A stretch of DNA of 64,000 nucleotides. Origin: an uncultured Pelagibacteraceae bacterium. Lineage in GTDB: Bacteria; Pseudomonadota; Alphaproteobacteria; Pelagibacterales; Pelagibacteraceae. A program made the position numbers and the translations under genes. The stretch is taken from assembly GCA_902605865.1 (NCBI GenBank), contig CACLEJ010000002.1:62001-126000 (forward strand). The letters are read 5' to 3'. Under the pieces are notes generated by a model that made no database searches, had not been told where the DNA came from, and saw only the letters and a program-made list of their open reading frames with translations. Positions 35,873-55,233 of this stretch are shown in pieces (positions within the stretch are counted from its first letter, which is position 1; each line of letters begins with the position of its first letter).

Positions 35873-36733
35873 ATGAAAGCAATAATTTTAAATGCATCTG
35901 CCTGGATGATTGTTCCTGTGATGGACGCACTTGCAAAATATTTAAGCTCGTCAATGAGTGTTTTACAAATCACTTGGGCTAGGTATTTTTTTACAGTTGT
36001 TTTCGCGCTTTCAATAATGCTTCTTTTTGATAGAAAATCTTTCGTTTGGAGTAAAAAACCTATGCTTCAATTGATTAGAGGGTTGATTTTTGTATTTTCA
36101 ACATATTTATTTTTTTTTGCAATATCTGAGATTTCGTTACCCAAAGCATTAACCTTAGCATTTGTTGCCCCGATTTGTGTAACAGCAATGTCACCCTTTT
36201 TTTTAAACGAGAAAGTAGGTTTAAGAAGGTGGACAGCAGTATCCATCGGCTTTATAGGTACCTTAATTGTTATTAGACCTGGATTTATAGAGATTAATTT
36301 GGCTACATTAGCTGCTTTAGGTAATGGAATTTGCTATGGATTTTACCTAATTATTACAAGAAAATTAAGCACATCTGATAACTCTCTGCTAACATTGTTA
36401 TTTGCTGGCACGGTAGGGACTATTGTTATGTCTATATTCATGCCTGGTGTCTGGATCCAGCCATCTAATAGTCAGTGGATTATGATGGCTTTAATTGGCT
36501 TTATAGCGGCTATTGCTCATCTTTTTATCATTTTATCGCTTAAATATGCAGATGCATCAAAATTAGCACCCCTTGGCTATACTGAAATTATCACTAATAT
36601 TTTGCTTAGTTATTATATATTTAATGAATTGCCTGATAATTGGACATATTTAGGTCTATTTATAATAATTTTATGTGGTCTTTATATATCAAGGAGAGAG
36701 TATTATTTATTAAACATTTATTTGGGTAAGTAA
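35873..36733 (+). CDS. EamA-family (drug/metabolite superfamily) transporter
   Basis: A 286-residue inner-membrane protein with about ten hydrophobic segments arranged as two EamA repeats: LNASAWMIVPVMDALAKYL and WARYFFTVVFAL in the first, AALGNGICYGFYLIITRKLS starting the second, and KYADASKLAPLGYTEII late. Relatives export amino acids or other metabolites; the substrate is unknown. It follows the double glycosyltransferase after 39 bases. A short inverted repeat (AAGTAA/TTACTT, 36728-36742) spans the stop codon but lacks a T-run. Confidence 0.88.
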   Translation: MKAIILNASAWMIVPVMDALAKYLSSSMSVLQITWARYFFTVVFALSIMLLFDRKSFVWSKKPMLQLIRGLIFVFSTYLFFFAISEISLPKALTLAFVAPICVTAMSPFFLNEKVGLRRWTAVSIGFIGTLIVIRPGFIEINLATLAALGNGICYGFYLIITRKLSTSDNSLLTLLFAGTVGTIVMSIFMPGVWIQPSNSQWIMMALIGFIAAIAHLFIILSLKYADASKLAPLGYTEIITNILLSYYIFNELPDNWTYLGLFIIILCGLYISRREYYLLNIYLGK

Positions 36734-37258
36734 AACTTACTTATATATTAATGTAATACTTTCACTATTATATGTAAACTACTGTTATTTAACGTATATT
36801 TATAAATATAGTTTTTATATAAGTATCAAGACTATTTCGTATATTATTAAAATCACTATAAAGATATTTTCTAAGAGAAATAATTTTATAAATATTTCTT
36901 AATTGGGTAATATCTTAAGAAAATAGAGCAGGGAATGAATTCCAGTTTATCATTAAAACTATAATTTTAAAAAATGAGTTAAAAGTAAATTAAAAAAAGC
37001 AAGTAAATATGCCAATATTTTATTGAATAGATAATTCAAGGACATATTATTAAGATATATCAGATAATTAAAATTAAACTTTTGGGTTAAAAAGAGGTAA
37101 TTTCTAAATAGCTCTGCAATATTCGAATATACCGTTTAAAAGCCCATAATTGGGTCTATTTTAAGTATTTATAATTTTACAGTGCAACTTATAGGTGATA
37201 TTAAAAAATAAATACTAAATATTGTATTTTAATCAAAAAACGTTGGAATTAAACGTTT
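36734..37258. other. 525-base A+T-rich intergenic gap, no gene found; one long imperfect stem
   Basis: I see no credible coding frame on either strand and no tRNA. Two structural features stand out. One is an imperfect stem of 12-13 bases, TATTTTCTAAGA (36865-36876) with TCTTAAGAAAATA (36913-36925), enclosing a second hairpin (AAGAGAAATA/TATTTCTT). The other is a perfect 12-base palindrome, ATATTCGAATAT (37119-37130). The stem could be a small RNA, a decayed element or a chance dyad in A+T-rich DNA. In a genome this compact a gap of this length is unusual and marks the accessory region. Confidence 0.5.
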
Positions 37259-37260
37259 TT
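37236..37260 (-). terminator. Rho-independent terminator after the alkyltransferase gene
   Basis: AAAAACGTT (37236-37244) and AACGTTTTT (37252-37260) form a perfect 9-base stem with a 7-base loop, directly after the stop codon of the minus-strand gene. On the minus strand the stem is followed by an uninterrupted T-run. The dyad is symmetric, so it might act in both directions. Confidence 0.6.
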
Positions 37261-37534
37261 AGAGCAAAATACCCTCTAATTTTAGTAGTTTTCTCTTGGT
37301 ACTTATTCCGCCTTTGGCCGAGTAACCACCTAGAGAACCATCTGACCTTATCACTCGATGACAAGGTATCTTAGGAGCATAAGGATTTTTTCCAATGGCA
37401 TTTGCCACAGCTCTTACTGCTTTTGGCTTTTTGATTGCTTTTGCTACCTGAGAATAGGTTCTTAGTTGGCCTTTCGGAATAGTTTTTAAATAATTCCAGA
37501 CTTTTAATTGAAATTTAGTGCCTTTTAAGATCAT
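37259..37534 (-). CDS. Short methylated-DNA--protein cysteine methyltransferase (C-terminal domain only)
   Basis: A 91-residue protein consisting of just the DNA-binding/active-site domain of O6-alkylguanine-DNA alkyltransferases. GTKFQLKVWNYLKTIPKGQLRTYSQVA is followed by RAVANAIGKNP, the active-site PCHRVI (Cys near residue 58) and the C-terminal GGYSAKGG...KRKLLKLEG. The cysteine is present, so it is not an alkyltransferase-like (ATL) protein with Trp at that site. The N-terminal domain of Ogt/Ada proteins is absent, as in other short family members. Its ATG lies only seven bases after the T-run of a strong terminator hairpin, with no visible ribosome-binding site in between. Confidence 0.87.
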   Translation of the reverse strand: MILKGTKFQLKVWNYLKTIPKGQLRTYSQVAKAIKKPKAVRAVANAIGKNPYAPKIPCHRVIRSDGSLGGYSAKGGISTKRKLLKLEGILL

Positions 37535-37540
37535 ATATAG

Positions 37541-37584
37541 AAAAAAACCCTGTTTCCTTGCACCTTTTCAGGTACAAAGAACAG
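37541..37584 (-). terminator. Strong intrinsic terminator ending the structured RNA
   Basis: On the minus strand CTGTTCTTTGTACC (37571-37584) pairs with GGTGCAAGGAAACAG (37550-37564) across a TGAAAA loop, with 14 pairs, two G-T wobbles and one bulged A. GG and a run of seven Ts (37541-37547) follow. It sits immediately upstream of the alkyltransferase start codon, so either it ends a separate RNA or it is an attenuator for that gene. Confidence 0.7.
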
Positions 37585-37725
37585 TAGTTTTTGGCACGTC
37601 GTTGTACGCGCTACCGCCATGCCGTCCACCCTGCAATTTTAGCGCTACTCTGCAGAGCTTTCTGCCCTCTGGGCTTGAACCTCTCGGTTTTTCCCCAGCT
37701 GGTCAGTTAAGAGTTGCCTCTTAAT
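37541..37725 (-). ncRNA. G+C-rich structured RNA candidate of unrecognised family
   Basis: This stretch is visibly far richer in G+C than its surroundings, the classic mark of a structured RNA in an A+T-rich genome. Read on the minus strand it gives, in order: a 7-base hairpin TTAAGAG-GCAA-CTCTTAA with a GNRA loop (37707-37724); CTGGG-gaaa-AACC-GAGA-GGTT-caag-CCCAG, a two-tier stem with a GNRA loop (37669-37698); GCAGA-AAGC-TCTGC (37652-37665); a longer-range TAGCGC/GCGCTA pairing (37640-37645 with 37608-37613); and a final 14-base terminator-like hairpin followed by seven Ts. It does not show the signatures of tmRNA, RNase P RNA, SRP RNA or the riboswitches I know. It could be a free small RNA or the leader of the alkyltransferase mRNA. 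Confidence 0.65.
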
Positions 37726-37831
37726 TCATTTTTAACAGTATCAGATAGGGTAGGTTGTATGTATCACTTTATCGTTGAATATTCTAAGTTTTTAACAGGG
37801 ATGAATAGCGGGGATAACTTAATCTAAAGCT

Positions 37832-38305
37832 TTAATTAAACCATCTAAAACCCTCATACATTGCAATTCCGTAAATTGAGTGTCTGACTAGAAACATAAT
37901 TGATGTTTTGATAGGTATTCCAGTATTATTTGCAAACACGCCCTGTCCTGTAAAGGGTAGAAATATCAGTAATGGAGCTAGTGTCGTAAGAGCTCCAAAA
38001 ATAAAGCCTGAAAAATATGTCATTTTTAGACCTATCATTAAAAAACAAAAATAATAAATTACAGCCCAACATATCGATACATAATAGTGAAAAATCCAAC
38101 CAAGTATGACCTCATACCTAAAATTGGGCATTTGGGCAATATTTGGGTTATAAAAAGTGGCATTTTTAAGCATATAATAAGTCCACCTTCCAACAATTCC
38201 CCAAGATGGTTCCGGAATACCCATCAATTTGAGTAAATAACCCAGAATATCAAGAATTATGCACGAAAATATTCCAGCAACTAAAATACTAATTATATCT
38301 ATCAA
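37832..38305 (-). CDS. DUF2938-like four-helix membrane protein
   Basis: A 157-residue membrane protein with about four hydrophobic helices: residues 5-27, 68-92 (FHYYVSICWAVIYYFCFLMIG), 97-118 and about 135-150. The pattern GIPEPSWGIVGRW near residue 32, EVILGWIFHYY, and FTGQGVFANNTGIP near 118 match what I recall of the DUF2938 family, whose function is unknown. The start is a TTG at 38305, preceded by GAGG at a good distance. That GAGG overlaps the stop of the upstream small membrane ORF, so the pair is probably translationally coupled. Confidence 0.75.
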   Translation of the reverse strand: MIDIISILVAGIFSCIILDILGYLLKLMGIPEPSWGIVGRWTYYMLKNATFYNPNIAQMPNFRYEVILGWIFHYYVSICWAVIYYFCFLMIGLKMTYFSGFIFGALTTLAPLLIFLPFTGQGVFANNTGIPIKTSIMFLVRHSIYGIAMYEGFRWFN

Positions 38306-38311
38306 ATTACC

Positions 38312-38476
38312 TCAAAACATTAATAAAAATAGTAAAACAAATATGCTGATAAAAAATATGCCAAAAATAACCATTAATATTCTATTTTTTGTTTGTTCTT
38401 TCAGTTTTGGCCAATAATTCATTATAAGAAATGTTCCAAAAACAACTATCAGACCAATTATGACATATTTAGGCAT
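38312..38476 (-). CDS. Small two-helix membrane protein, 54 residues
   Basis: Translating the minus strand from the ATG at 38476 gives a 54-residue protein: a first hydrophobic segment YVIIGLIVVFGTFLIM (about 4-19), a short charged linker WPKLKEQTKNR, and a second hydrophobic segment MVIFGIFFISIFVLLFLLM (about 35-53). It resembles the small hairpin-type membrane proteins common in SAR11 genomes. I recognise no family. It lies just upstream of the DUF2938-like gene, whose ribosome-binding site overlaps its stop, and it diverges from the integrase. Confidence 0.6.
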   Translation of the reverse strand: MPKYVIIGLIVVFGTFLIMNYWPKLKEQTKNRILMVIFGIFFISIFVLLFLLMF

Positions 38477-38499
38477 TAAGATTCTTTTACATTAAATGC

Positions 38500-38528
38500 T
38501 TGACTTGTAAAATGTGTTATATTATATT
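38500..38528 (+). promoter_or_regulatory. Sigma-70-type promoter of the integrase gene
   Basis: TTGACT (38500-38505) and TATATT (38523-38528) are separated by exactly 17 bases. Transcription would start near 38535, inside the inverted repeat described next, leaving a leader of about 24 bases. The -10 box overlaps the left arm of that repeat by three bases. Confidence 0.55.
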
Positions 38529-38554
38529 TCCGATAATTAATGGTTATCGGAAAT
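38526..38554. repeat. Perfect 11-bp inverted repeat with 7-bp spacer, candidate recombinase core site/operator
   Basis: ATTTCCGATAA (38526-38536) and TTATCGGAAAT (38544-38554) are perfect inverted copies around the spacer TTAATGG. The arrangement (11-bp arms, 7-bp spacer) is that of a tyrosine-recombinase core site. It ends four bases before the start codon of a complete tyrosine recombinase and overlaps its -10 box and transcription start. It could be the crossover site, an autoregulatory operator, or both. I found no second complete copy in the window. Confidence 0.6.
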
Positions 38555-38558
38555 TATT

Positions 38559-39476
38559 ATGAATAACGTTATTACTGATATTAAATCACTTGAATTAGAA
38601 ACAATTAAGAATCTAAAAAACTCAAAGGCAATAAATACAGTTCGTGCTTATGAGTCTGATTTTAAGGATTTTTCATTATTTTGCATAAAAAATGGACTGA
38701 ATTCACTTCCAACTGAGCCAAAGATATTATCTTTATACTTAACTCATTTGTCAAAAAAAAGTAAATTTAGCACATTAAAGAGAAGAATTGCCTCAATAAA
38801 GGTTGTACATAAAATTAAAGGCCATTATCTGGATTCTAAACATCCTATAATAATGGAAAATCTGTTAGGCATAAAAAGAATAAACGGATCGCATCAGAAG
38901 TCAAAAAAACCTTTATTAATCAATAGTTTAAAACATATAATTAAAGCTATAGATGACAATGAAAAAAATGAATTTAAAAGGATAAGAAATAAATCAATAA
39001 TATTATTAGGATTTTCTGGAGGTTTTAGAAGATCAGAGCTTGTTAACATTGAGTACGATGATCTGGAATTTGTGGATGAGGGTCTTAAAATTTTTATTAA
39101 AAGATCTAAGACAGATCAATCAGGTGAAGGTAGTTTAAAAGCAATACCCTACTTTAAAAATTTAGAATTTTGTCCAGTAATAAAACTTAAAGATTGGATT
39201 AATTTAAATAAAATAAAATTTGGAAAAATTTTTGATATTTCGGATAAATCTGTCTCGCTCATAATTAAAAAATATGCCTTTATGGCAGGTTTAGATCCAA
39301 AAAAATATGGTGGACACAGTTTAAGATCAGGATTTGCTACATCAGCAGCAGAAGCAGGTGCTGAAGAAAGAAACATTATGGCTATGACAGGTCATAAAAC
39401 AACACAAATGGTAAGAAGATATATTAATGAAGCAAATTTATTTAAAAATAATGCACTTAATAAAATAAAGATATGA
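38559..39476 (+). CDS. Tyrosine recombinase / site-specific integrase
   Basis: A complete 305-residue tyrosine recombinase. The N-terminal SAM-like core-binding domain (about 10-105) contains AINTVRAYESDFKDFSLFC. The catalytic domain carries all the expected residues: Arg157 in GGFRRSEL, Lys184 in RSKTDQ, His253 and Arg256 in HSLRSG, His279 in TGHKT and Tyr288 in RRYI. It lacks an extra arm-binding domain, so it is a simple (Xer-like in size) recombinase. The diverged sequence and accessory setting argue against it being housekeeping XerC or XerD. No excisionase, transposase or phage gene is adjacent. Base composition matches the neighbours. Confidence 0.93.
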   Translation: MNNVITDIKSLELETIKNLKNSKAINTVRAYESDFKDFSLFCIKNGLNSLPTEPKILSLYLTHLSKKSKFSTLKRRIASIKVVHKIKGHYLDSKHPIIMENLLGIKRINGSHQKSKKPLLINSLKHIIKAIDDNEKNEFKRIRNKSIILLGFSGGFRRSELVNIEYDDLEFVDEGLKIFIKRSKTDQSGEGSLKAIPYFKNLEFCPVIKLKDWINLNKIKFGKIFDISDKSVSLIIKKYAFMAGLDPKKYGGHSLRSGFATSAAEAGAEERNIMAMTGHKTTQMVRRYINEANLFKNNALNKIKI

Positions 39477-55227: not shown

Positions 55228-55233
55228 AAATAG

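Follow-up and report, generated by a model that had tools for sequence, protein, structure and literature searches.

The described RNA family closest to the locus analysed here is IMES-2 (Rfam RF02035), which, judging from its name, we take to be an RNA of marine bacteria and which the founding metagenome survey reportedly counted among the very abundant marine RNAs, with a discrete transcript of its own. Some of the ocean's most numerous cells carry this orphan RNA. IMES-1 (RF02034), reportedly found abundant in the sea by that survey as well, is a sister in name, but has no match in the Pelagibacterales genomes that we tested. Two better-known RNAs share features with IMES-2. 6S RNA (RF00013) is of similar length and is likewise a stand-alone RNA gene, but it was detected neither at the locus nor in any genome searched, and its architecture differs. 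The purine riboswitch resembles IMES-2 in form only, through a loop-loop clamp between adjacent hairpins, whereas IMES-2 has neither a closing helix around that pair of hairpins nor a constant linked gene, and is not known to bind a ligand. Among the papers listed for IMES-2, IMES-1 and SAR11 small RNAs we found a single relevant mention, which counts IMES-2 among the likely environmental contaminants of a squid genome (PMC6962438).

To this picture the present analysis adds the SAR11 setting of IMES-2, the refutation of a reading as a leader, the boundaries of the unit, genomic sites that lack the RNA, two conserved upstream boxes and a kissing pair between two loops. With a host clade, boundaries, boxes, RNA-less sites and a kissing pair open to testing, what had been a motif in seawater DNA becomes a gene amenable to assay.

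An IMES-2 gene in a G+C-rich island

Within the window, by which we mean the whole 64-kb stretch of DNA analysed, the most G+C-rich 120 nt (in steps of 10) start at 37601 and reach 55.8%, compared to 28.1% overall; the runner-up, with 53.3% at 55231, is tRNA-Pro. An earlier note, made from the letters alone, had pointed to an abrupt G+C-rich island here, and this was an accurate observation. A cmscan search placed all 141 positions of the RF02035 model on the minus strand of this island with 161 bits (E = 2.2e-42; curated cut-off, 54.7 bits), and a permissive scan of 36700–38600 returned no competing Rfam family, with no match to 6S RNA up to an E-value of 5. The region is an IMES-2 gene, a member of an already catalogued small RNA family of SAR11 ocean bacteria. 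Membership is seen in the full-length match well above the cut-off, in consensus hairpins that covary across 65 homologues (double-sided change in 28 of 39 pairs, kissing helix excluded) and in the hosts: a pattern derived from hairpin P4 found at least 119 stretches in named genomes, and all 80 of the matches listed are titled Pelagibacteraceae or Pelagibacterales, which are marine. Thus the note was wrong in calling the family unrecognised and the locus the window's best candidate for something undescribed, given that Rfam already holds it as RF02035. The note had also offered a confident Rfam match as a refutation; the match found disposes of the novelty and leaves the reality of the RNA intact. 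The note was right that the minus strand encodes a structured RNA with a terminator-like hairpin at its end.

The helices are the same as those in the printed Rfam consensus structure, to which we add a kissing pair of 6 bp that joins loop 3 to loop 4; the printed covariance-model structure leaves both loops unpaired. This pair may already be annotated in the Rfam seed or in the founding paper; because covariance models cannot hold pseudoknots, the printed model is uninformative on that point. The previously proposed extent of 37541–37725 captured a real RNA, but the 5′ start of the core lies at 37731 and conserved sequence continues upstream to about 37817 (Table 1). The terminator-like hairpin followed by seven Ts is present as described, although the distance from the T-run to the alkyltransferase ATG is 6 bases rather than the seven given. 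Two GNRA tetraloops (GCAA on hairpin 1 and GAGA on hairpin 2a) and a longer-range helix, which is the one closing hairpin 2, had likewise been read correctly.

Table 1 Features of the IMES-2 locus in window coordinates
Feature	Position	Strand	Basis
IMES-2 RNA core (RF02035 positions 1–141)	37591..37731	-	cmscan, 161 bits
Transcript, about 190 nt, core plus terminator	37541..37731	-	inferred from Rfam core and conserved terminal hairpin/T-run
Hairpin P1, GCAA tetraloop	37707..37724	-	covariation, helix 1
Hairpin P2 with inner P2a, GAGA tetraloop	37662..37706	-	covariation, helices 2 and 3
Hairpin P3, large conserved loop	37628..37658	-	covariation, helices 4 and 5
Kissing pair, loop 3 half, GCGCUA	37640..37645	-	complementarity and covariation with loop 4
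Hairpin P4, large conserved loop	37593..37623	-	covariation, helix 7
Kissing pair, loop 4 half, UAGCGC	37608..37613	-	complementarity and covariation with loop 3
Terminator-like hairpin and T7	37541..37589	-	fold, positional conservation
Upstream box B, TCAACGATAAAGTGATA	37762..37778	-	core AAGTGAT conserved
Upstream box A, degenerate in the window, TTATCCCCGCTATTCAT	37801..37817	-	DnaA-box-like in most relatives
-10 region, tentative	37736..37744	-	position only, inference

Covariation of the fold and a pair between loops 3 and 4

The minimum-energy fold of 37541–37731 on the minus strand has −73.4 kcal/mol (z = −5.5), a value as low as which was reached by none of 200 shuffles. Covariation was assessed on an alignment of 65 homologues with 45 pairs (39 without the kissing helix); an alignment of the 80 named loci was kept out of this evidence because the P4 search pattern had fixed letters of loop 4. 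Over the whole fold, 94.8% of the cells are paired and 31 of the 45 pairs show double-sided change, with 377 double-changed cells against 115 in shuffles. The covariation score is 0.401; shuffles score 0.168, and sliding the structure along the alignment yields no more than 0.091. The check for covarying pairs across SAR11 relatives that the earlier note had proposed therefore came out in favour of the RNA.

Helix 1 of P1 is paired in 100% of the cells and shows double-sided change in 4 of 7 pairs; the corresponding fractions are 9/11 and 2/4 for helices 2 and 3 of P2/P2a, 8/8 for helices 4 and 5 of P3, and 5/9 for helix 7 of P4. There are blemishes: pair 39–70 in P2 fails in 26 of the 65 sequences, helix 5 is only 76.9% paired, and in P4 all 65 have a non-standard combination at one of the pairs drawn by Rfam (G-A in the window).

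The loop segments GCGCUA and UAGCGC are complementary over 6 bp, beyond the printed Rfam structure. This kissing helix alone is paired in 98.2% of the cells of the 65 homologues, with double-sided change in 3 of its 6 pairs and in 11 cells (0.7 and 0.9, respectively, in shuffles), and the loop 3/loop 4 variants include GCGC/GCGC, GUGC/GCAC, GCAC/GUGC, GUAC/GUAC and UCGCUG/UAGCGA. A pair is broken in one row (UCGCUG with UAGCGC), and the last pair is missing from six. The double changes are confined to 9 of the 65 rows, several of them related, so that the independent events are fewer than nine. A count of further pair types is not above shuffles (308 of 500 as high), and sliding the helix by +3 gives 9 double-changed cells, yet only 51.9% pairing. 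The minimum-energy fold, a method unable to show kissing pairs, places weak local pairs inside loops 3 and 4 instead. Taken as covariation evidence, these data support a 6-bp kissing pair that joins the last two loops. The same covariation is expected of a pair formed between two molecules, and the loops could equally well join in a dimer.

Neighbouring genes and the control region of the unit

The earlier note had left two options, an independent small RNA or the leader of a DNA-alkylation repair gene. The second of these would make the RNA a cis-acting leader or riboswitch that stops or passes transcription into the MGMT gene, and the window itself, with its 6 bases between T-run and ATG, is suggestive of such an arrangement. 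We compared gene order at 21 loci of up to 10 kb from six genera (g1, g2, g5, g6, g8 and g9), naming neighbours by Pfam from one member of each cluster. In genus g1, to which the window belongs, all 10 loci have a tyrosine recombinase upstream and an MGMT-domain protein (PF01035) just downstream on the same strand. Elsewhere the neighbours differ. At the 7 loci of g5, g6 and g9, a gene of the mnmA type (PF03054) lies upstream and the gene downstream, without Pfam match, is on the opposite strand; at the 3 loci of g2, an SNase-domain gene lies upstream and an SRAP gene on the opposite strand downstream; and at the single locus of g8, a selO gene lies upstream. In total, the downstream gene is a same-strand alkyltransferase at 10 of the 21 loci, an opposite-strand gene at 10 and another same-strand gene at 1. 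A further set of 80 named loci among the at least 119 matches, reduced to 72 evaluable ones by dropping 2 that cut the RNA and 6 that end too soon, gave 44 same-strand alkyltransferases, 27 opposite-strand genes and 1 other gene among the matches listed.

Conversely, the MGMT gene occurs without the RNA. In two g1 genomes that lack IMES-2 (G003 and G030) the MGMT ORF directly follows a small ORF with no RNA between them, and the same arrangement is found in a g5 genome (G094) that carries IMES-2 elsewhere; in two more genomes (G005 and G020) MGMT follows another ORF, again with no RNA there. A constant same-strand downstream gene, as a leader or riboswitch calls for, is not found. Because the neighbours change with the genus, MGMT sites without the RNA exist, and the terminator and upstream boxes travel with it, we conclude that IMES-2 is an independent small-RNA gene and not a leader. 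The first option of the note thus stood, the second is contradicted by gene order in relatives and is highly improbable, and a tempting but wrong reading as the switch of a repair gene is removed. In g1, the MGMT-domain protein (91 aa, 37259–37534) may nevertheless depend on read-through from the putative IMES-2 promoter.

At the other side of the RNA, a DUF2938 protein (PF11158; 37832–38305) lies upstream of IMES-2 in 4 of the 10 g1 loci (cluster c23), with different small ORFs at this position in the other g1 loci.

Two boxes stand upstream of the RNA at a near-constant distance in relatives whose flanking genes differ. Box A, about 74–87 bases upstream, is within one mismatch of TTWTNCACA in 75 of 83 distinct homologous stretches, compared to 11% of shuffles and 2 of 83 for the pattern in reverse orientation, and the core of box B, AAGTGAT, is exact in 62 of 74 against 0.7% of shuffles, counts that speak for conservation and not for binding, since related sequences share letters by descent. 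In most relatives box A resembles a DnaA box; by our reading, the window's own copy has 2 mismatches to TTWTNCACA. Some versions of box B are inverted repeats. The sequence TTATCCACA was also observed upstream of the RNA (e.g., at loci L054, L063 and L064); it is perfect in 4 and has one mismatch in 50 of the 83 distinct stretches, and in many cases another repeat directly adjoins it. Position alone hints at a −10 element: TATAAT with at most one mismatch occurs there in 55 of 83 stretches and in 49% of shuffles, and an automatic promoter scan returned nothing on the minus strand. A search of six genomes for a box B regulon gave 19 matches, near the number for the reversed-pattern control, and no regulon was found; 2 of the matches are IMES-2 itself, and the 6 examined of the other 17 lie in coding ORFs. 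GC skew, sampled in one carrier genome (G015) as 20 sparse stretches of 15 kb, gave gene-orientation noise only and no origin or terminus signal, and thus provided no link between the DnaA-like box and an origin.

Downstream, a hairpin below −8 kcal/mol followed by at least 5 T in 7 bases was found in 85 of 89 distinct homologous stretches, the window's among them. Mononucleotide shuffles passed this test in 12 of 445 cases, and control stretches taken further upstream in 8 of 87. A simple consensus terminator scan found 0 terminators and missed the window's hairpin, perhaps because the T-run partly pairs with the stem. In two carriers (G015 and G048) the extra stretch spans some 280 bp, from about box A to the T-run. 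As judged from these sequences, the IMES-2 unit appears to have an upstream control region and a terminator of its own.

The neighbouring recombinase raises the question of whether IMES-2 is part of a mobile element or phage and is carried by that enzyme, a reading that we consider extremely improbable. A recombinase ORF (PF00589) is upstream in 10 of 10 g1 loci, and IMES-2 is patchy, with sites that lack the RNA. However, 18 of 20 genomes searched, with or without IMES-2, have exactly one copy of the recombinase, which is the pattern of a chromosomal Xer (the other two genomes have two weak matches and none, respectively), and 11 loci of g2, g5, g6, g8 and g9 are without that recombinase cluster within 5 kb. 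No IMES-2 was found in phage and plasmid records. Viral contigs, scanned with two patterns, yielded 0 and 1 matches, and the single match is not IMES-2.

A recombinase tree of 54 rows (45 with and 9 without IMES-2) needs 6 changes in the presence of IMES-2, 4 of them forced by well-supported branches, compared to a mean of 8.5 in shuffles, of which 6 in 500 were as low as 6. Since 29 rows came from top-scoring matches, one genome is present twice and the protein tree does not follow genera, we conclude from it only that IMES-2 is patchy. There is also a hint that recombination may have occurred at the IMES-2 locus. The recombinase of the window (38559–39476) appears to be the one Xer present in these genomes, with a match in 19 of 20.

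Distribution and possible mode of action

The genome of the window (1.24 Mb in 30 contigs) holds one copy of IMES-2. Under filters that were stricter and lost some weak matches, the RNA was found in 200 of the 397 genomes that represent the order, with one match each (75 of 151 near-complete genomes). A class-wide draw of 385 genomes gave 3 matches, each in a member of the family to which the window belongs, Pelagibacteraceae. IMES-2 is thus a patchy gene, found in these searches in Pelagibacteraceae alone, and its presence in about half of the genomes implies that it is dispensable in many relatives. In 25 genomes that the Rfam model does not match, a model built from 65 sequences (R1) revealed no convincing diverged copy of IMES-2. 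Its 12 matches are weak (best E = 0.015, 18 bits); the 9 examined overlap long ORFs, and the best falls, by our reading, at the rpoA-rplQ junction. IMES-1 was considered as a counterpart in genomes that lack IMES-2 and was rejected, with matches in 0 of 30 Pelagibacterales genomes, the window's included.

6S RNA was sought in 28 chosen genomes, among them that of the window (G000), with no match at E-values up to 1, and, under stricter filters, in 198 drawn Pelagibacteraceae genomes that overlap the first set, with none found; several genomes are single-contig, and a Caulobacter control matched in both searches. The apparent absence of 6S RNA from the host bacteria could be taken to mean that IMES-2 is its functional stand-in as a regulator of RNA polymerase. 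We regard this as very unlikely. As many as 11 of the 28 genomes are also without IMES-2, which is too patchy for a simple replacement; 6S RNA is built as a long rod, unlike the separate hairpins of IMES-2; and no 6S match was seen at the locus itself. Hardly less improbable is a replication-linked accessory RNA, which would combine the DnaA-box-like site and a palindrome-like operator with a kissing-clamped particle adjusting growth or transcription in cells without detectable 6S RNA.

Our main reading, to which we assign a probability of roughly 0.7, is that IMES-2 is a stand-alone gene of SAR11 with a covarying fold and a kissing pair, which would be transcribed on its own and would yield a compact RNA that acts in trans and is more likely protein-bound. 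The RNA would fold into a compact particle in which the two 3′ hairpins are clamped side by side, and would probably work through a bound protein rather than as a switch of the adjoining gene. A possible but considerably less probable mode of action is that of a trans-acting antisense sRNA pairing with mRNAs, for instance with Hfq. The size of IMES-2, its own terminator with a T-run and its patchy distribution are all typical of such sRNAs, and conserved unpaired bases remain in loop 3, loop 4 and the P2–P3 linker (AAA), where pairing with targets might occur. On the other hand, the 45 pairs leave the remaining conserved sequence in short pieces, and the best-conserved segments of the two loops are taken up by pairing between them. 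Because 90 of the 141 core nucleotides lie in the 45 pairs and the conserved free stretches (loop flanks and P2–P3 linker) are short, we mildly favour a protein-bound particle over an antisense RNA.

For Candidatus Pelagibacter ubique, PMC2704228 lists a G+C-rich, conserved intergenic region of 195 nt downstream of recA, there without an RNA assignment, which could be another structured RNA of SAR11.
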